Shown here one piece after another: positions 45,667 to 62,822 of a stretch of 64,000 nt of DNA (its first letter is position 1; the number at the start of each line of letters is the position of its first letter). The notes under the pieces were generated by a model that saw only the letters and a program-made list of their open reading frames with translations, was not told the DNA's origin and searched no databases. Origin of the DNA: Cucumis sativus (taxonomy: Eukaryota; Streptophyta; Magnoliopsida; Cucurbitales; Cucurbitaceae); contig NC_026656.2 in assembly GCF_000004075.3 (NCBI RefSeq), positions 310,001-374,000 of the forward strand. The letters are read 5' to 3'. The position numbers were made by a program, and so were the translations under genes.

Positions 45667-48116
45667 CTACTGTTGTTTGCACTCTGGAGGCCTCTCCCCC
45701 TGCTGACCATCCCCACCTGCTGCTCGTCCACCCTTCTGTACATACCAAACAACATTACAATAATAATATGTGAGATAGACGAAAGTTCAAACACGTTCAT
45801 GGTCAGACATTTGTTCAACAATGGATTGGAAGTGTACCTTGTTCCCAGCTGAGGGCTGCTTCCACGCAAACACAAAACCCAGTCCAATGGAAAAAGGTTA
45901 AAAGACAGTTCATTCTAACTAATTATACAAAATGGGGAAGAATATATACATAAACAGACCAAATCAAAGTAATAACAAATTGGCTTACCTTTTTCCTTGA
46001 CTTCCCTTCATCTTCATCCTCGTCTTCATCATCATCTTCATCATCATCATCCTCGTCTTCGTCATCATCCTCTTCGTCATCGTTATCTTCGTCGTCTTCA
46101 TCATCATTGTCCATGTCCTCAAATTCCTCATCTTGAATAGCCTCCCCTGTAAACCATGAGACGGCGTGGGGGATAATCTTGTCCCGAATGGTTGACCTAA
46201 GGGAAAGAAATAAACAAATTTAAAGACATCAAAATCCACCCAAAGCTTGATTATCCATTCAACAATATTAGTCTCGTATATGAAACAACTTTATCGCACA
46301 AATATAGACAAGTCAACCTATTGCATATTGCTAATTAACACATCAATTCTCAAGAGATTAAGAATGTCAACAACTCACCCAATATCATAATCTTGCTCCA
46401 TTTGATTTTGTAGCTCCTCAGCCTGACATGAGAGAAAATATAAAAAAGAGCACGGCAAAAGCAATGCATAATGATTTCTTGCTAAAGGGATAATAAACCT
46501 ACTGTATCCTCATCAATATCTTCATCATCATCGGGTACTTGAGGTGGACTAAAAAAGTTGAAGAAGCTTTCACAATTTTCAGTCTTAGTGATCGGCTTAG
46601 CATTCTTCGATCCCTTCTTAGGCTTCTTCTTCAGAAGTTTCTGAGTAAGGCACTTCCCAGGATACCATTCAATCTCAGTTCTGCCAACAAGAGATTATCG
46701 TTTTCAGTTGAAGTGTAACAAAGTAGTTCAAAGTATGTCATCTTATACTACATAGCTAACACATATTTAGTCTAAATAGAATCCCAACAACCAATGAGGT
46801 AGAATGTAATTACCCAATTGCTTTCTCAAGAATTGGTTCATCTTCATCGATCATATGGTATGTCTTTGTTAAGACAGAATTTTTAAAGAATGGATTGGTC
46901 TCAAAATAAAACTCAAGCTTGAAGCCTTTGGGATTATCTATTCTACACCACTTGATATCTTTCAAGTATTTGAGTGCTCCTTCATCACGCTCGGTAATCT
47001 GGAACAAAGCAACCAAGAGATAAGATAGAAGGTGACAGAATATGCTATTCAGACAATTCTTCAAAACTAGCAGAAAATACAAACCTCCTCAGCTAATACT
47101 TCATTGTTCTTCATTGCTGTAAGCCAAAAATCGGGGACACCTTTCTCTGCAAAGGCAAAAAACACTTAATACGTAATCACAAAGAAAATCATCATACCAA
47201 ATGTCAGTAATGAATTACCTGCTGCGTCCTTGTCCTCTTGTCCGGTAGCGGATTCTTTTGGAACCCCTTCTGCTTCAACAACGCCATTAACAATATTGAA
47301 TCGCTGCAGACCAGGAAACCAATCAAGAACCAAACAATATTGTAACATCACGAAGCTAATATAGGATATATCCACACCTGAGTGTATAGTGGCTGATACA
47401 ACTTCTGGTATTTAGCCTCAAGCGCCAACCTTTCCTCAAAAAATTTTGCTTCTAATTCGTCGTGTTGGCTCTGTCGAATGGAAGAACTTATTATAAATAA
47501 CTCAAACAATAGAAACAATTCATGAATTCCTCTACGTTAGCACCAAACAACTGCAAAAACAGCAAAAGCGAGAAACCAACAAGTCCGTATAACGAAAACA
47601 TCAAACAACAGAAAAGTTATACTTGCCTGGATCTCTCTTAGCACATCAACGCGCTTACGAACAACAGGTGACAAATTCTCGAGGACATCGGAATGCTGCC
47701 CAGCAAGACTCTGTATCTTATTCTGCCAAGAATCGAAAACGCAAGTAAAGTCAATCACCGCATAACCCAAACTTCAGAATATATTTTATCAACTGATGTT
47801 TTAGAGTAAACAAGTACGGAAACAGATATTCAAATCCAATAAAACCAGACAAAAGTACTAACAAGAGAAGGAATATATTCCTGATTCTAGAGAAGCAAAA
47901 GAGAATCAATTGAAGTACCTTAAGAGCGTTGACGAGGCCTGCTCGATCCTCCTCATTGAGAGCTTGAAAATTAAATTAAAAACAAAAAAGGCTCGAAATC
48001 AGTTCGTGAAGAAAAGAAACGAGGAATGAAGAAAAATCGATAAAGAAAAAAAGAGAAAGAATTTGAATACCGGAACCGAGATCTGAGACATTGAAGTTGT
48101 CCTTGTTGTTACTCAT
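45667..48116 (-). CDS. Nucleosome assembly protein 1-like (NAP1;1-type)
   Basis: Twelve minus-strand exons (48116-48071, 47962-47919, 47722-47627, 47470-47378, 47303-47219, 47146-47085, 46998-46814, 46680-46503, 46422-46379, 46196-45989, 45855-45838, 45735-45667) encode 375 residues. NAP1 proteins carry H2A-H2B and assist nucleosome assembly. The N-terminal dimer helix region shows [24 protein letters not shown]. The core has [46 protein letters not shown]-like [13 protein letters not shown], and [19 protein letters not shown] long Asp/Glu tail (about 300-345) precedes KSRKK. The protein ends ECKQQ, a CaaX-type farnesylation box known from Arabidopsis NAP1;1. The intron after exon 3 has a GC donor (CAG|GCAAGT). 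Exon 11 is only 18 nt. Confidence 0.95.
45838..45855 (-). other. 18-nt micro-exon of NAP1
   Basis: This exon encodes PSAGNK and is flanked by clear AG (45857-45856) and GT (45837-45836) signals. It lies between the KSRKK exon and the exon that gives [10 protein letters not shown]. Skipping it keeps the frame, so a shorter isoform is possible. Confidence 0.75.
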
Positions 48117-50829: not shown

Positions 50830-53800
50830 ATGGCGAGGCTTGTTCGAAATGCATCTTTTCTTGCCCGCTCTCTTCTTCAGCGCGAGGTCGGTCTTTTTCA
50901 CTTACACTCTTAATCTTCTTTGTTTCACTGTATAACTCTTGGTGTATGCGTTCGTTGTGGCCACTCATTATTTTTTACTCTATTTACAGTTTAGAGTGAG
51001 CCCTCCTTATTTATAGAAGGACTAGAGACAAAATATTTCTTAGCTTTTACGTCTTTTGGTTTGAGTTTTTGCTTGCTTTCTTTGCAGGGCTACAGGAGAG
51101 GCGTATTGGTGACGTCTACTCCAATATGTAATTTTTCAACCAAAGGTGCGAAATGTTGGCTTTGATTACGTTAGTTCAAACATGGTTGTGAAGCAGAACG
51201 TTGGAAATTTTTTGACTATTTTGTTTGAAAAAACGTTCACTCACGACCTCTAAGGTTTAGATAATTTATTTTGTTCATTACAATGTGACTCAACGTCAAT
51301 GTTCAATCAATGTTGAAGGTAAAAAGAAGGCTTCTAAGTCATCAGATGGGAGTGATTCTTCTGAAGAGAAATTGTCTAAGAAAGAGCTGGCCTTACAACA
51401 AGCCTTGGATCAGATAACTACCGCATTTGGAAAGGGGTCTATCATGTGGCTTGGCCGTTCTCAATCATCTAAAAGCGTCCCTGTGGTTTCCTCAGGTTCG
51501 GTTTCTTTGGACATAGCACTAGGAGTTGGTGGCTTCCCTAAGGTATTATACACTTTTTTATGATGTCTTAGTGAGGTTGAAGCATTTCTTAATCACATAT
51601 ATTTGGATGGCCGTTTCACTTGTTTTAGAACTTTTTATGTAGCTTCTTTCATTTAAACATGTATTTGTAAATGGTAAATGAAAAAAAAATATTGAGACAT
51701 CATGCATGTGTTTCATGTTTGTGATGTAACTTCATTATATTTTTATAGGGTCGTGTAATTGAGATTTATGGTCCAGAGGCATCTGGAAAGACAACTCTTG
51801 CACTGCATGTAATCGCTGAAACCCAGAAGCAAGGAGGTACTGTTTAATTGATAAATTAATGTGCTCATTCAGTGTATAAGCAAGTAAATTTGAACGAGCA
51901 AAAATACCCAAAATTAATGGGCAGGTACACTGTAGAATAAGAAAAGTACAACCACCAACAAACCTAAAAATATTAATCAGCGTAATAGGGTTTAGAAAGC
52001 CTGTTACTTTGGTCTAGGTGCATCACAAAATTTTGTTTGTAGAGAAGGCGTGCGGTTTGCACTGAGTTATTTGACACTCCACTCCCATGATAGCACTTCC
52101 TTCGTCTAAGTTCTCTTACAAATTTCTATTAACTTCTACACTCAAGGAAACAGAAAAGTGCTGAAATTTCGTCTATCAAAGTCCTTTTCTACAGAATATT
52201 CTCTTTCCGTTGGGCATCATGTCAATGGGGATTTGTAAGATAGTTTACTTGCACTGATGCACACAATTTTTTTTGAAAGGATGTGTATATTGGGAATGGA
52301 GTGCCTAATAACTCAGTGCACATGGTATGCCTTTTTTAAGGACAGCATTTTGCTATGTGCGTTGACCCAAATAGCTGACTTTATATTTCTTACTTACTAT
52401 TATGTATATGCCATTCTTGGCCTTTGTTTTGCACATTTTATTCTTAAACCTTTTTCATACCACACACTAGAACTGTATATTATATCGTCCTTAAATTAAC
52501 TTATGTTTTTTGTTCAACAATAAAAGATAGTTTTGGAGATGTAATTTTAAAGTTTAACTTTATCACACACAAACATAATGCTGGAGTAATTTGCTTTGGT
52601 CTTTTTAATGCAGGTTGCTGTGTTTTTATTGATGCGGAGCATGCTCTTGATCCAGCCCTCGCACAGACTATTGGAGTGGACACTGAGAACCTCCTCCTAT
52701 CTCAACCTGACTGTGGTGAACAAGCTCTTAGTCTTGTGGACACCCTAATCCGAAGTGGTTCAGTTGATTGTGTTGTTGTTGACAGTGTGAGTATGATGGA
52801 AACTATTTTAAAGAGAACAGTTGGAAATTTGTTATTTTTATATGTTTAATTTTCCATTTTTATTTTTGGGTATAGGAAACATTGATATGTTGAAATTAGT
52901 TTAATCTTATTTTTTTGGTACATAGTAAGATCATGGTTGCCTCTATGACAGGTAGCTGCCCTTGTGCCTAAAGCTGAACTCGATGGTGAGATGGGTGATG
53001 CCCACATGGCTATGCAGGCTAGACTCATGAGCCAAGCACTTCGCAAATTATGCCATTCTTTATCCCAATCACAGACTATATTAATATTTATCAATCAGGT
53101 CTTATTTCATTTCTCAAATGTCATGGCAATGAACTGTGATTTTCTACATTGTGATGGCATCAATTATTTAGTTATCTGAGTTCAGTATTTTTGCACTCAT
53201 TGGTTCGTATGCGACTCTAGGTAAGGTCAAAGATGTCCACTTATGGATATGGTGGTCCATCTGAAGTTACTTGTGGTGGCAATGCATTAAAGTTTTATGC
53301 CTCGGTGCGTCTTAATATTAGAAGAATAGGTTCTGTCATGAGGGGGGAAGAGGTATAAAACATTAACTTGGCAGTAAATCTGGATACTGTGTAAATGCAT
53401 TTTTTTATGCGTATATTAATTTGTACATTGCTGTATATTTCAATGGCAGACAATAGGAAACCAGGTTCAAGTAAAAGTGATGAAGAATAAGGTTGCTCCT
53501 CCATTTCGCACCGCTAACTTCGAGCTCGAGTTTGGAAAAGGTATAAGTAAGGAGGCAGAGGTTATAGATTTGGGGTCGAAATATAAATTCATAAGCAAGG
53601 CAGGTTCATTTTTTAAGTATAATGGTCAAAGCTTCCACGGCAAAGAAACTTTCAAAACTTTTCTGTCGAATAATGAAGATGTTAGGAACGAACTAATTAC
53701 AAAAATTCAAGAGAAACTACTCGATGTGGAAATGGATAAGCCACAGGACGGAGATGAAACAGAAGGAAGTCCCCAAGAAGATACTATCGAGCCATCTGAA

Positions 53801-54845
53801 TCCAATGACGAAGATGCAGTTACTGCTGTAGAAGCATAAGCTTGTAGATGCCATTCTAATAGTGAATTCATGCATTTCCATCCTTATTATCCTAGATCTA
53901 TTCCTCCTCTCTTTGCCAGGCACAAAGTTTTGGGTCTCCATACCACAATTTTTGTATCTTGTAGTTCGTGCTTTTATGGTTCCGATGATGGCTGATGATT
54001 ACCCTTATTACCATCAGCCATTTTTCATGAAGAATAGAATGTTGACAATGGAGATTTTAGAAAATCAGAATGCCAGTCCAAGGCTTTTCATCCAAAATGC
54101 CGATTTTGCATTGCATCATGACTTAATTTGTAAGTGTGAGTAGCTGTATAACTGATCAACGTGTATTATTCCCTAATTATTGCATCTTATTAAATTGTTG
54201 GGCATTTTTACAAGTTTTACAGACTAATTTTGAACAAATTCTTGAGCGTGAGAATGCCTTTCTGCTTTACATTCTCTCTTCAGATAATATTGCTTACAAC
54301 AGCTATTATTATTTTGAGTTCGGTCTTTCGACTATGAGGGTATGATATGTTGGCATTATTGGAACTTCTTTTGAAGCTTTTTCAAGTTTTTTTTTTTTTT
54401 TCCAACTAATATATCAATGTTTATGAATCTATGAACTATGTATTTTCCTTATCATACAATTAGAATAATTGATTTTTGGTTTATGGTCTCAAGATTTTTT
54501 CTAAAGTTTGTACACAATCTATTTTGTCCTCGTTCTATTAGCTGAGAAGGAAAACTTCCTAGGTTCCTAATTTTCCACTATGGTTTGTAAAATTGCACTA
54601 CTTTGTCCACGCCTACATTAAATATAAAGATTAAAAGATTTGATAATAGAAGGTCAAGATAATTAAATATTTAATGTAAGCGTGGAATCTAACCCACGTT
54701 TATGTTTATTTTCATGTTCAGTACTATTTTTATTTGTATGGATCTCTTTGAATCTTCATGTTTTGTATCTGACCAACGTTCTGTTTACAAAAGTGTTTTT
54801 AATTGTATTCGAATTAAAACAAAGATTGAAAAAGAACTTAAATAA
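50590..54845 (+). repeat. Tandem segmental duplication, unit 1 (RecA copy 1)
   Basis: The block matches 55010-59410 from the leader (aaagaaccctaaaaa..gcag) through all eight exons and introns to the 3' flank (tgtattcgaattaaaacaaa). Introns are still alignable, so the duplication is not very old. About 440 bp at roughly 54052-54490 have no partner in unit 2. Confidence 0.9.
50830..53839 (+). CDS. Mitochondrial RecA homolog, copy 1 (RECA2/RECA3 type)
   Basis: Eight exons (50830-50886, 51088-51145, 51319-51542, 51749-51836, 52614-52786, 52952-53098, 53221-53352, 53450-53839) encode 422 residues. RecA recombinases carry out ATP-dependent strand exchange; the plant organellar forms repair organelle DNA and suppress recombination between short repeats. 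The N terminus [19 protein letters not shown] is basic and lacks acids until the end, as expected for a mitochondrial presequence. Core motifs are intact: GKGSIMWLG, Walker [10 protein letters not shown] (121-129), [11 protein letters not shown], Walker B VVVDS (D199), [26 protein letters not shown] (Q249), [14 protein letters not shown]. The C-terminal domain (about 295-385) is followed by an acidic tail ending [10 protein letters not shown]. Whether it corresponds to RECA2 or RECA3 is unresolved. Confidence 0.93.
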
Positions 54846-55276: not shown

Positions 55277-58200
55277 ATGGCGAGGCTTATTCGAAATGCA
55301 TCTTTTCTTGGGCGCTCTCTTTTTCAGCGCGAGGTCTCATTCACTTACATTGTTAATCTTCTTTGTTTCACCGTACAGCACTTGGTGTATGCGTTGCCAC
55401 TCATTATTTTAACTCTATATGCAATTTAGAATGAGCCCTCCTTTATTTAAAGAAGGATTAGATTTTAAATATTTTTGAGCTAATTTCGCTTTTACGTCTT
55501 TTGGTTTGAATTTCTGCTTGTTTTCTTTGCAGGGCTACAGGAGAGGCATATTAGGAACTTCTACTCAAATATGTAATTTTTCAACCAAAGGTGCGATATA
55601 TTGGCTTTGATTACGTTAGTTCAAACATGATTGTGATGAACTTGTCGTGAAGCAGAATGTTGGAAATTTTTAGACTTTTGTTTGAAAAAACGTTTATTCA
55701 TTCATGCACGACCTCTTAGAAAAGGTTCAGATAATGTATTATGTTCATTACAATGTGACTCAATATCAATGTTATGTCGATCTTGAAAGTAAAAAGAAGC
55801 CTGCTAATTCATCAGATGGGAGTGATTCTTCTGAAAAGAAGTTGTCTAAGAAAGAGCTGGCCTTACAACAAGCCTTGGGTCAGATAACTACCACATTTGG
55901 AAAGGGGTCGATCATGTGGCTTGGCCGTTCTGCATCATCTAAAAATGTCCCTGTGGTTTCCACAGGTTCGTTTTCTTTGGATATGGCTCTAGGAGTAGGT
56001 GGCTTTCCTAAGGTATTTTACATTTCTTTATGATGTCGTAGTGAGGATGAAGTATTTCTTAATCATATGTATTTGAATGGCTGCTTCGCTTGTTTTAGAA
56101 CTCTTTATCTAGCACCTTTCCTCAAACCATGTTTTTGTAAATGGTAAATGAAAAAAGAATATTGAGACATCATGCATGTGTTTCATGTTTGTGATATAAC
56201 TTCATTAGATCTTTATAGGGTCGTGTAATCGAGATTTATGGTCCAGAGGCATCTGGAAAGACAACTCTTGCATTGCATGTAATCGCTGAATCCCAGAAGC
56301 AAGGAGGTACTGTTTAATTGATAAGTCAATGTGCTCATTCAGTCTTTAAGCAAGTAAATTAAACGAGCCCATTTGCTCCTGCAGAAAATTATAATCTGAT
56401 AACTGGCTTCCGCATTTAATTCGTTTAGGTCATTTTGTTGGATATGTTGGAAAAAATACGCAAAATAAATGGGCAGGAATACGGTAGATTAAGAAAAGTA
56501 ACAACCACCAACAAACATAAAAGTATCAATCAGTGTAATAGGGTTTAGAAAGTCTTTTACTTTGGTCTAGGTGCATCACAAAATTTTGTTCATAGAGAAA
56601 CATGCTGTTTGCACTGAGTTATTTGACACTCCTTTCCCACGATACCACTTCCTTCGAGGAAGCTTGTCTGCATCTAAGTTGTCTTACAAATTTCTATTAA
56701 CTTCTATGCTCAAGGAAATAAAAAATTGCTGAAATTTCTTCTATCAAAGTCCGTTTCTACGGAACATTCTACGCTCGACCGGGATTTGTAAGATAGTTTA
56801 GTTGCACTGATGCACAGAAGTTCCTTTGTTTTTTTGAAAGGATGTGTATCTTGGGAGTGGAGTGCCTAATCACTGAATGCACTTGGTATGCCTTCTTAAA
56901 GGACAACATTTTGCTATGTGCCTTACACAAATAGCTGACTTTACATCTCTTAGTTATATTTATGTATACACCATTCTTGGGCTTTGTTTTGCACATTTTA
57001 TTCTTAGACCTTTTTCATATCACACACACTAGAACTGTATATTATATTGTCCTTTGGGGAAGAGAACAATTCAAATTAACTTATGTTTTTTGTTCAACAA
57101 TAAAGGATAGTTTTGGAGGTGTAGTTTGAAAGTTTAACTTTAGTACACACAAACATAATGCTGGAGTAATCTGCTTCGGTCTTTTCAATGCAGGTAGCTG
57201 TGTCTTTGTTGATGCGGAGCATGCCTTTGATCCAGCCCTCGCTCAGGCTATTGGAGTGAACACTGAGAACCTCTACCTATCTCAACCTGACTGTGGTGAA
57301 CAAGCTCTTAGTTTTGTGGATTCCCAAATCCGACGTGGTTCTGTTGATGTTGTTGTTGTTAACAATGTGAGTATGATGCAAACTGTTTTGAAGAGAACAG
57401 TTGGAAATTTGTTATTTTTATATGTTGAATTTTCCTTTTTTATTTTCGGGTATAGGAAACAGAAACAGTTTCATTGATATGTTGAAATTACTTCAATCTT
57501 ATTTTCTTGGAACATCGTAAAATATTGAATGCCTCTGACCAGGTAGCTGCTCTTGTGCCTAAAGGTGAAGTCGATGGTGAGATGGGTGATACCCCCATGG
57601 CTATGCAGGCTAGACTCATGGGCCAAGCACTTCGCAAATTGTGCCATTCTTTATTCCTATCACAGACTATATTAATATTTATTAGTCAGGTATTATTTTG
57701 TTTCTCAACTTTTTCAGCAATAAACTGCGACTTTCTACATGGTGGTGGCATCGATTATTTAGTTATCACTTATCAGAGTTCAGTATTACTGCACTCCTTA
57801 ATACGTATTTATCTCTAGATAAGGTCAAAGCCATCCACTTTTGGAGGATCTGAAGTTGTTACATGTTGTGGTAATGCGGTAAAGTTTTATGCCTCGGTCC
57901 GTCTTTTTGTTTGCAGAATAGGTTATGTCAAGAAGGGGGAAGAGGTATAAACATTAAATTGCTAGTAAATCTGGATACTGTTTAAATGCATTTTTTAATG
58001 TGAATATTAATTTATGCATTGTTGTATATTCAATTGCAGGTGATAGGAAGCCGCGTTCAAGTAAAAGTGGTAAAGAATAAGCTTGCTCCTCCATTTCGTA
58101 TTGCTCAATTTGAGCTCGAGCGTGGAAAAGGTATATGTAAGGAGTCGGAGATTATAATTTTGGGGTTGAAATATAAATTCATGTCCCAGGCAGCTTCACT

Positions 58201-58720
58201 CTATCGCTTTCATGGTCGAAGCTTCTACGGGAAAGAATCCTTGAAAACTTTTCTGTTAGAGAGTGAAGATGCTAGGGAAGAACTAATTACGAAACTACGG
58301 GAGAAACTACTCGATGCTGAAATGGGTAAGCCACAGAATAGAGATGAAACAGAAGGAAGTCTTCAAGAAGATGTTATCACACCACCTAATTCTAGGGACG
58401 AAGATGCAGTTACTGCTGTAAAAGTGATGAAGAATAATAAGCATGCTCCATTTCGAAATGTTCAATTCGAGCTCAAGTCTGGAAAAGGTATAAGTAAGGA
58501 GTCAGAGATTATAGATTTGGCGTTGAAATATAAATTCATAACCAAGGCAGGTTCATTCTTTAAGTATAATGGTCGAAACTTCCATGGCAAAGAAGCCTTG
58601 AAAACTTTTCTGTCAAAGAATGAAGATGTTAGGAAAGAACTAATTACAAAACTTCAAGAATATATTATCACGCCACCTGATTCGACGGATGAAGATGCAG
58701 TTACTGCTGCAGAAGCATAA
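55277..58720 (+). CDS. Diverged mitochondrial RecA homolog, copy 2, with doubled C-terminal domain
   Basis: Exons parallel copy 1: 55277-55333, 55533-55590, exon 3 ending 56012, 56219-56306, 57194-57366, 57543-57689, 57819-57944, 58040-58720. Walker [10 protein letters not shown] is kept, but Walker B VVVDS is VVVNN, FINQ is FISQ, GDAHM is GDTPM, and CGGNALKF is [11 protein letters not shown] hydrolysis and strand exchange are therefore doubtful. The exon 3 acceptor used in copy 1 is altered by one base, so the matching AG would shift the frame. In-frame alternatives are an AG before 55720 (about 540 residues) or before 55816 (about 508 residues). The last exon encodes two successive RecA C-terminal domains. 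Long open exons with no stops suggest a product is still possible. It could also be a transcribed pseudogene. Confidence 0.7.
58061..58720 (+). repeat. In-frame duplication of the RecA C-terminal domain
   Basis: Unit A is 58061-58417 (119 codons) and unit B is 58418-58720. Both run from VKV(V/M)KN through FELxxGKGI(C/S)KESEII, KYKF, GKE(S/A)LKTFL and ELITKL to DEDAVTA. Unit B resembles the copy 1 domain more than unit A does ([18 protein letters not shown]). Unit B lacks about 24 codons of the acidic linker between two similar cttcaagaa words. Confidence 0.9.
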
Positions 58721-60392: not shown

Positions 60393-62822
60393 TTACGATT
60401 TATTTTGGTATGATGATAGTGATGGTAAGTCGGAGACAATTCTTCTCACTGCTTCCAGGAAGGCCGACTCGTCCCATTCCCCACCCTAAAGAAAGGAAAA
60501 AACAAAAACAAACAATATAAAGATTCCATCATATATACTTTTTTAAAAAGTAGTTTAATTTAAGAAACTTAATTACTTGAATTCACAACTATTCAATGAA
60601 ACCCAATTTTATAATACTTTCAATTATAAGAAAAAAAGAAAAAGAATGAAGCAAATTAATTACCTGAAGGCTAAACCTGAAGCCGAGGCGGGTAAGAGGA
60701 GAAGGAGCGATCATATGGTTAGCATGAAATGACAAAACTACTCTTGCGTTAACAATAGACTTCAAGAATTGAAGAATGCGAATTGCGGTATCCGTCATTA
60801 ACTGACTACTATCGCCTCTTATGATTATTTCCAAATCTACGACGATCGTCTCGTCTGTTGATCCTGGTGGCGGTGGCTCGTAGGAAACGTTAACGGTAAA
60901 CTGTTGGTTAAGGGATGAAGTGGGAGTGGTTGGTTGGTGGTGTACTGTTCTAATATGAGGATCTTGAGCTTGTAGAAGAATGTGGTTTCTATGGCTAAGT
61001 TCTGATACTTGTGCTTTCAATTTGGTTAAGTATTCTCTTGCTGTTGCCAATACTGATGCTTTATCTTTCTACGTATACGTAAATATATTCATTAACCAAA
61101 TAATAATAACAACATCAATATAATATGCAATCCAAAACAGTATGTATTCATCAAACAATGTCATGATAAAAACATAATAATTATAAAAAAGAAAAAAAGG
61201 AAGGATTTAGTAATTGAGACACTAACCTTAGTTTGAGGTGGAAGAATAGATCTCAAAGCAAGAAAGCTTTCATTGAGTTTTTCTCTCCTTCTCCTCTCCG
61301 CTATCATATGAATCAGTTGAGCCGACGCTGGCCGCTTGGCCGCCTCTATTATTATTCTCTCTCCAATCCTCATTTTCTTTAACTTTCTATAAAACACTAA
61401 CCCTTTTTTCATCAAACTTTCCCTTTTCTGATTCTCCTCCGCCCCTTCCACCGCCGCCTTCTTCACATTATATTCCTCAAAAGCACTTTCTCTCGAACCT
61501 CCCGACAACGACGAACGGTCCGGTGGTAGCGGAAGCAATGGTATCGTAGAAAGATCGTTGTAAAACAGTAATGAAGGGATTTCTGGGGTTTCTTCAATGG
61601 ATGGAGATTTGGGAGAAAGGGAAGATGGAATAATATTGGGCGGAAGTTGATCAGAAGAAGAAGCCATTATTATTGATGAAACTTCTTCCCAAGCAGGAAA
61701 TAGTATTTGATTTGTTTGTTTCATCTCCTCTACCATTTCTACCTGAAAATTATATTTAAATTTCCTTTAACTAAACATAATAATTTGATAAAGAAATCTA
61801 ATTTTAGGGTTTACCTGTGAAAAGCCAAGTTCTATTTCTCCATTGCTGCTCCCCATGAAAACAACGCTCTGGCATGCATTGTTATTTTTTAGCAAAGTTG
61901 TATTGATAATTAATCAACCGAAAAGATCAGTGGGACTTCGAGGCCACATTTGATCTCTACACAGTATTAAGCTATATAATTACTAATACATCACAGTAAA
62001 TTTTAGATATTGTTTCATTTTTGGATTTTAAAACTAAGTTTAAACAGTTTGAGAGGAAAGGAATCATACAAAATACTAGCTAGAGAGTCTTAGTTTAATC
62101 AATAAGCCTATGATCCTATGTGATCAAGATGAATGAGAAGTTCATAGTTTGAGATAAGAAAATTTCATATATATCCGAAATTATTTAACAACAGCAGCTT
62201 ACCTTAATCCCAGCTGCCTGTGAGAAAAAAAAATCAAAAAATTAAAAAAAATTATGATGTATTTTAGCATAAAATAAAGTTATTATAACACACTTACAGC
62301 ATAAAATTGGGTTTGGATTCGAGAAGAAGAGTGGGTTAGAAGCACAGATTCCCGAACCTCTAAAAATGAAATTTTGTTCTTGAAAGCATGGCCAGGGACA
62401 AGGCTGTAATCAAGTGTGTTCATAATTTAAAACTTTTTAATTAATAAAAATATTATAATGATAATAAATAAAAAAAACTTACTTATTTTCAAGACTAAAT
62501 ATCACTTGTGTATACTCATTGAACAGCCTTCGTTGGAAACTTCCTAAAGAACTGCTGGGTTGTTTCTTCTGATCATCATCCTCATCCTCCCGAAACAACC
62601 CATCAAGATTCATTAAACAACTTAAAACATAAACATAAAGTTAATATCATTTTCCAATAAATAATCAGGGAAAAAAAAAGGGAAATGAAAATGATATAAT
62701 ATATACTTGGAAGGATGGGGTAAATAAGACCAAATGCAAATGTAAGTGGAATGAACAGATTGCAGAAGGGAATGCAAGAAGGAGGCTCGAGCATCCTGAT
62801 TGAGGGAAAATACAATTTCCAT
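60393..62822 (-). CDS. bHLH transcription factor, bHLH041-like
   Basis: Eight minus-strand exons (62822-62707, 62620-62483, 62403-62298, 62217-62203, 61868-61815, 61742-61227, 61068-60664, 60485-60393) encode 480 residues. The N-terminal region (MEIVFSLNQDARASFLHSL, STYICIWSYLPHPSN, LFNEYTQVIFSL, VRESVLLTHSSSRIQTQFY, AAGIKSVVFMGSSNGEIELG) is a GAF-like regulatory domain typical of bHLH041 and related plant bHLHs. The DNA-binding region (about 282-335) reads SAQLIHMIAERRRREKLNES with the H-x3-E-x2-R pattern expected for E-box binding, then ALRSILPPQTKKDKASVLATAREYLTKLKAQVSEL. A C-terminal ACT-like region follows. Exon 4 is only 15 nt. Targets are unknown. The start is the first ATG giving the conserved N terminus. 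Confidence 0.88.
62203..62217 (-). other. 15-nt micro-exon of the bHLH gene
   Basis: This exon encodes AAGIK, with CAG before it and GTAAGC after it. It joins QTQFYA to SVVFMGSSNGE and is needed for the conserved (A)AGI(K)xVVF strand of this family. Removing it keeps the frame. Confidence 0.75.

Follow-up and report, generated by a model that had tools for sequence, protein, structure and literature searches.

The last exon of the second of two tandem RecA genes in the Cucumis sativus genome encodes two consecutive units where its neighbour has one, and the doubled layout is genuine. With about even confidence, and judging from sequence, we read this gene (copy 2) as a non-catalytic, decaying paralogue of an organelle-type RecA, probably RECA2, in which the C-terminal domain of the second unit (B) would have replaced that of the first (A), at the level of either the protein or the RNA.

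The two genes lie head to tail in the window (C2:310001-374000, the whole stretch of 64,000 nt that was analysed) and have eight exons in common (Table 1). Both proteins match the Pfam RecA core (PF00154) above its cut-off of 27 bits, copy 1 with 406.8 and copy 2 with 366.5 bits, and copy 2 has retained a leader-like N-terminal extension. A search of the genome (226.6 Mb in 88 contigs), scanned with the RecA_C profile, found two more RecA loci, one at C2:16.37 Mb and one at C4:16.89-16.90 Mb. The total is therefore four loci, compared with the three RecA genes reported for Arabidopsis in an excerpt of PMC6963530. Elsewhere in the window, open reading frames on the minus strand match nucleosome assembly protein (PF00956) at 46810-47088 (73 bits) and at 45923-46219 (23.8 bits, below the cut-off), the latter ending in a long Asp/Glu tail. 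Also on the minus strand, matches to bHLH (PF00010, 30 bits) at 61161-61766 and to DUF7049 (28 bits, cut-off 27) at 60589-61068 probably belong to one bHLH gene spanning 60589-61766.

Table 1. Coordinates of the tandem RecA genes and of the features discussed in the text, numbered from the first position of the window.
Feature	Positions	Strand	Description
Copy 1, RecA gene, probably RECA2-type	50830..53839	+	8 exons, 422 aa; one C-terminal domain; seven introns, all of them GT-AG
Last exon of copy 1	53450..53839	+	Single unit, from 53471
Copy 2, tandem paralogue	55277..58720	+	8 exons by homology; 517 aa with homologous exon borders; exon-3 border without AG
Lost acceptor of intron 2	55787..55788	+	AG in copy 1, AA in copy 2
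Walker B change	57361..57366	+	D199N and S200N (E. coli D144, S145); VVVVDS to VVVVNN
Exon 7 of copy 2	57819..57944	+	Loop L2 and site II: P206E, E207V, G211C, R226C (E. coli numbering); 6-nt deletion
Last exon of copy 2	58040..58720	+	681 nt; open throughout (226 codons and a stop; phase 0 at entry); two units
Unit A	58061..58417	+	Last core strands kept; C-terminal domain degraded; acidic tail
Possible 357-nt phase-1 intron	58131..58487	+	GGAAAAG/GTATAT ... CTGGAAAAG/GTATAA (slashes mark the splice borders); prediction only
Unit B	58418..58720	+	Last core strands degraded, Lys250 equivalent lost; C-terminal domain kept; shortened tail

Judged by a motif, the locus at C2:16.37 Mb may be RECA1-like. 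An acidic C-terminal tail is present in copies 1 and 2 and absent from the last exon of the C4 gene, which ends soon after the domain. Such a tail is described for RECA1 and RECA2, and RECA3 is described as lacking it (excerpts of PMC9129000 and PMC6981420); the tandem pair is therefore called probably RECA2-type here. The C4 gene is a probable orthologue of RECA3 (At3g10140). Over the stretch compared, copy 1 is 57.5% identical to E. coli RecA (185/322), and the identities to E. coli RecA given for the Arabidopsis proteins are 53% for AtRECA2 and 41% for AtRECA3 (PMC6963530, in excerpt).

An earlier note on this DNA had described the last exon of copy 2 as running without a stop through two consecutive units, and both the open reading frame at 58040-58720 and the exon alignment bear this out. 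A repeat finder returned the same three unit copies (at 53439, 58029 and 58386), with A and B 357 nt apart, and the junction word GTA(A/G)AA reads as claimed. The note's view that the C-terminal domain is encoded twice holds for the doubling and its frame, but the repeat is wider than the domain: it sets in ~25 codons before the domain, where the final strands of the RecA core lie (E. coli K245-K250), and spans the C-terminal domain and the acidic tail. At the DNA level copy 1 and unit A are 80.3% identical (306/381), copy 1 and unit B 85.8% (260/303), and A and B 82.7% (243/294), so that by plain identity unit B is indeed nearer to copy 1 than to unit A. Since A and B differ at 17% of sites, the doubling is no echo of the assembly; near-identical units would be expected of such an artefact, which is thus ruled out.

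Scanned alone, unit B matches the RecA_C profile (PF21096) with 47 bits (cut-off 27), and unit A has no match to it at E<=1e-3; likewise, the genome scan with this profile found unit B and not unit A. The complete protein of copy 2 reaches 58 bits, which indicates some contribution from unit A. In the excerpted text of PMC4666392, K286 and K302 of RecA are conserved gateway lysines and R226 belongs to the secondary DNA site II. The equivalent of Lys286 is retained in copy 1 and unit B and is Gln in unit A, and the equivalent of Lys302 is Lys in all three. Unit A has further exchanged an invariant Asp and an invariant Gly (positions 333 and 345 of copy 1) for Ile and Ala. Unit B is without 22 tail codons that are present in copy 1 and unit A, and a compensated 3-nt shift marks its start (NNKHAPF for NKVAPPF).

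Damage is also found in the core of copy 2. In an alignment of 14 bacterial RecAs with 111 invariant columns, copy 1 keeps 101 of these positions and copy 2 keeps 88. Changes found in copy 2, at positions unchanged in copy 1, are D144N, S145N, H163P, N193S, P206E, E207V, G211C and R226C (E. coli numbering), with the exact placement of residues in L2 depending on alignment gaps. The E. coli motifs are given as 66-GPESSGKTT for Walker A and 140-VIVVD-144 for Walker B in an excerpt of PMC6472873. Walker A is intact in copy 2; its Walker B reads VVVVN, aligned with VVVVD in copy 1, and copy 2 thus does not carry the combination of Walker A and Walker B that marks an active recombinase. Polarisation of the 96 replacements between the copies assigned 53 to copy 2, 22 to copy 1 and 21 to neither.

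Copy 2 has in addition lost the acceptor AG of intron 2, and its remaining six introns are GT-AG. Among the 16 AGs scanned between 55653 and 55857, three keep the frame. They would start exon 3 at 55720 (69 nt upstream of the lost site, +23 aa, with the best pyrimidine tract, 0.70), at 55816 (27 nt downstream, -9 aa) or at 55855 (66 nt downstream, -22 aa, tract 0.25). The additional residues encoded by 55720-55788, if the upstream AG is used, would stand between the leader and the core.

The idea that a doubled domain could change DNA binding, also put forward in the earlier note, is weakened by the loss of Walker B Asp/Ser, of L2 and site II residues of the core and of the gateway Lys286 in unit A, and because of this damage a working double-gated recombinase is unlikely.

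The coding sequence of copy 2 has remained open. Comparison of copies 1 and 2 gives dN/dS values of 0.61 for exons 1-6, 0.76 for exon 7 and 0.81 for exon 8, which we consider high for RecA; pooled nonsynonymous change is not significantly below synonymous change (p 0.09), and the differences in exons 1-6 are distributed as 26/15/22 over the codon positions. No premature stop or frameshift was found in the 1251 aligned coding bases of copy 2. All coding indels are multiples of three (6 nt in exon 7, and 66 nt plus the compensated 3-nt shift in unit B), compared with 23 indels in 1707 aligned intron bases, 83% of which are not multiples of three. Neutral simulation from copy 2 produced on average 4.4 stops if half of the divergence falls on this copy (P(0)=0.01), and 3.2 stops if 35% does (P(0)=0.04). 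From the intron indel rate, 7.0 frameshifts would be expected on copy 2 (P(0)=0.001), and the product of the two neutral probabilities, for no stop and no frameshift, is ~1e-5 if half of the divergence lies on copy 2. Set against this neutral expectation, the intact frame makes it probable that copy 2 was translated during a large part of its history, under weak sequence constraint.

Within the doubled exon, units A and B appear to have decayed in complement, with moderate statistical support: the core strands were kept in A and the C-terminal domain in B. Nonsynonymous changes relative to copy 1 amount to 7.5 in A and 12.7 in B over codons 301-324, and to 30.5 in A and 15.0 in B over codons 325-385. 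For the kept halves (A strands and B domain) dN/dS is 0.58, for the other halves 1.04, at similar dS (0.21 and 0.25). This contrast has p 0.006 in a Fisher test and p 0.001 in a sign-flip test, or 0.005 when the cluster of changes at 307-310 is taken as one event. On residue scores it has p 0.0003-0.008 depending on the border, ~0.02 with the cluster as one event and 0.07-0.08 without the cluster, all in a test that was framed after the data had been seen. Borders from 318 to 324 separate the constrained and free halves equally well. The C-terminal domain of unit A has diverged from copy 1 at about the neutral rate (0.213 nonsynonymous and 0.231 synonymous changes per site). Gene conversion of the start of exon 8, considered as the reason for A's intact core strands, was unsupported, as synonymous divergence between copy 1 and A is even along the unit (0.21-0.23).

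The structures of A and B were predicted separately with AlphaFold, because the alignment had placed the bacterial rows on unit B; each prediction used 11 bacterial rows, all of the 14 except L038, L039 and L042. Both models are modest, with a mean pLDDT of 69.5 for A and 64.9 for B. The domain fold is present in both (block pLDDT 80-90 in A and 79-83 in B), and each model has matches among RecA structures, with a best E of 9e-7 for A and 2e-4 for B. The core strands are formed in the model of A (pLDDT 64-73) and not in that of B (about 44), the latter model starting at the first residue of the unit, without the residues that precede these strands in a real core.

In the explanation that we favour, a partial tandem duplication of ~357 nt within the last exon, joined at the short GTA(A/G)AA word, would have given the gene a second set of last core strands, C-terminal domain and acidic tail in the same frame. 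This redundancy would then have been resolved in complement: the core strands of A would have stayed because they complete the ATPase core, the C-terminal domain of A would have drifted, and that of B, with the equivalents of Lys286 and Lys302 kept, would have become the domain that counts. Such a product, if made, would be non-catalytic, with a dead ATPase and altered DNA loops, and could at most bind DNA or mix with copy 1 filaments. We infer that a product is made from copy 2, and that the gene is either being lost or retained only for a minor role outside catalysis. Some observations speak against this explanation: the open frame argues against simple decay, the loss of the exon-3 acceptor argues against a normally spliced product, and AlphaFold confidence is slightly higher for the domain of A than for that of B, so that B is not favoured by the models.

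An ordinary pseudogene without a product, its frame left open by luck and by gene conversion from copy 1, is an unlikely alternative. It would fit the lost acceptor AG, the Walker B and L2 losses, the spread of exon 1-6 differences over codon positions together with dN/dS of 0.6-0.8 and the pooled p of 0.09, and the lower divergence of introns 1-5 than of intron 6 (p 0.003), which suggests conversion. It has difficulty with a coding sequence free of stops and frameshifts next to introns rich in indels (neutral probability ~1e-5) and with coding indels that are all multiples of three, and the lost AG weighs less when three in-frame acceptors can stand in for it. The same open frame, along with the retained leader-like extension, the intact Walker A and the predicted folding of both units into a domain matching RecA structures, would also suit a RecA that is translated with both C-terminal domains in working order and acts as a regulator of copy 1, for instance as a subunit of mixed filaments that adds dsDNA-binding surface or a further acidic brake. 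This we regard as very improbable, given that the domain of unit A evolves about neutrally and no longer has the Lys286 equivalent or two further invariant residues, and that the core is altered at its ATP site and DNA loops.

Rather unlikely, too, is a reading in which the duplication made a new spliceosomal intron at 58131-58487, with the AG/GT in GGAAAAGGTAT of both units serving as donor and acceptor; splicing would leave a single hybrid C-terminal domain, made of the A strands and the B domain, and no two-domain protein. Duplication of an exon segment carrying AGGT is a recognised route to a new intron, established in other genes (excerpts of PMC4974935 and PMC3443670). One AGGT lies in register in both units (at 58129 and +357), the predicted intron length is a multiple of 3 and would leave the frame intact after splicing, and the donor AAG/gtatat resembles the donors AAG/gtatta and GAG/gtataa of the same genes. 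This AGGT also falls within the border stretch 318-324 between the constrained and free halves. AGGT is not rare, however, with five occurrences in the 390-nt last exon of copy 1, and the 357-nt stretch contains no stop or frameshift, for which the joint probability is 0.07 to 0.002 if it has been an intron since the duplication. Its T content of 25.8% is exon-like (27-29%) and not intron-like (38-40%), and its acceptor tract has a C+T fraction of 0.45, below the range of the 14 homologous tracts in both genes (0.50-0.85). Because the border between the core and the C-terminal domain lies at the same spot as the AGGT, the decay pattern fits both ideas, and sequence alone cannot separate a new intron from a protein in which B works. 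Direct splicing of exon 7 to the AG just before unit B (near 58410) was considered and rejected, its phase being wrong as judged by eye. A combination, in which the intron would be spliced in part of the transcripts to give a hybrid single-domain protein and unspliced message would give a two-domain RecA whose dead ATPase form interferes with the filaments of copy 1 in organelles or modulates them, seems improbable.

The source of unit B is a separate matter. Its derivation from the neighbour by unequal exchange or conversion, as the earlier note proposed, could not be established. Silent differences do not differ significantly between the pair of copy 1 and B (10.8 in 62.7 sites) and the pair of A and B (14.3 in 64.3 sites; Fisher p 0.66 on rounded counts), an unconstrained tree rooted with the 14 bacterial RecAs places A next to B (ultrafast bootstrap 90), and all three groupings are acceptable in the AU test (copy 1 with B, p 0.27; A with B, p 0.61; copy 1 with A, p 0.44). 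Residues that are rarer in bacteria link copy 1 with B at 3 positions, A with B at 5 and copy 1 with A at 2. The higher identity of B to copy 1 is due mainly to faster amino-acid change in A, and unit B may stem from copy 1, from A or from a third copy that has since disappeared. Along the pair, the two genes are roughly twice as divergent in intron 6, exon 7 and unit A as they are in introns 1-5 (170/1490 sites in introns 1-5 and 26/122 in intron 6, p 0.003), and exons 1-6 are less divergent than exon 7 or unit A. The lower values suggest past conversion of the 5' two-thirds, and the pattern resembles a gene-conversion mosaic between the copies; the divergence of intron 7, low again at 11/95, misfits a single border.

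Mutants of Arabidopsis recA2 are seedling-lethal according to an excerpt of PMC9129000. A second copy in tandem, with altered catalysis, would be a natural candidate modifier of organelle recombination. The doubled exon lends itself to a clean test between two outcomes of partial duplication, a new protein layout and a new intron. Should copy 2 simply be decaying, it would represent ordinary gene-duplicate loss. Among the matches listed from the open-licence literature (titles and starts of abstracts), none described this locus or a RecA in which the C-terminal domain is doubled, which is weak evidence of absence. A second RecA_C match was found in none of the 56 distinct bacterial genomes with a match (14/14 in one set and 43/52 in another, one genome being in both), and 9 of the 52 genomes of the second set had no match at all; this search is blind to unit A, and a degraded second domain in other genomes would therefore be missed. 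Within what was searched, the doubled C-terminal layout is unusual.

Compared with known systems, the pair has the core, the C-terminal domain and the acidic tail in common with plant RECA2 (Arabidopsis At2g19490, a dual-targeted organelle RecA), but cucumber has two tandem copies, of which copy 2 is without the Walker B Asp and has the doubled last-exon unit. Plant RECA3 (At3g10140) has the same RecA fold but not the acidic tail found in copies 1 and 2. The units are predicted to fold like the C-terminal domain of bacterial RecA (the dsDNA gateway, PF21096), and the equivalents of Lys286 and Lys302 are present in copy 1 and unit B; bacterial RecA has a single RecA_C match per genome, whereas copy 2 is doubled with unit A degraded. 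As in the intron gains of ATP2A1 and potato RdRp, copy 2 carries an in-frame tandem duplication within an exon with a shared AGGT, but its intron is a prediction, its units are 17% diverged and its frame is still open.
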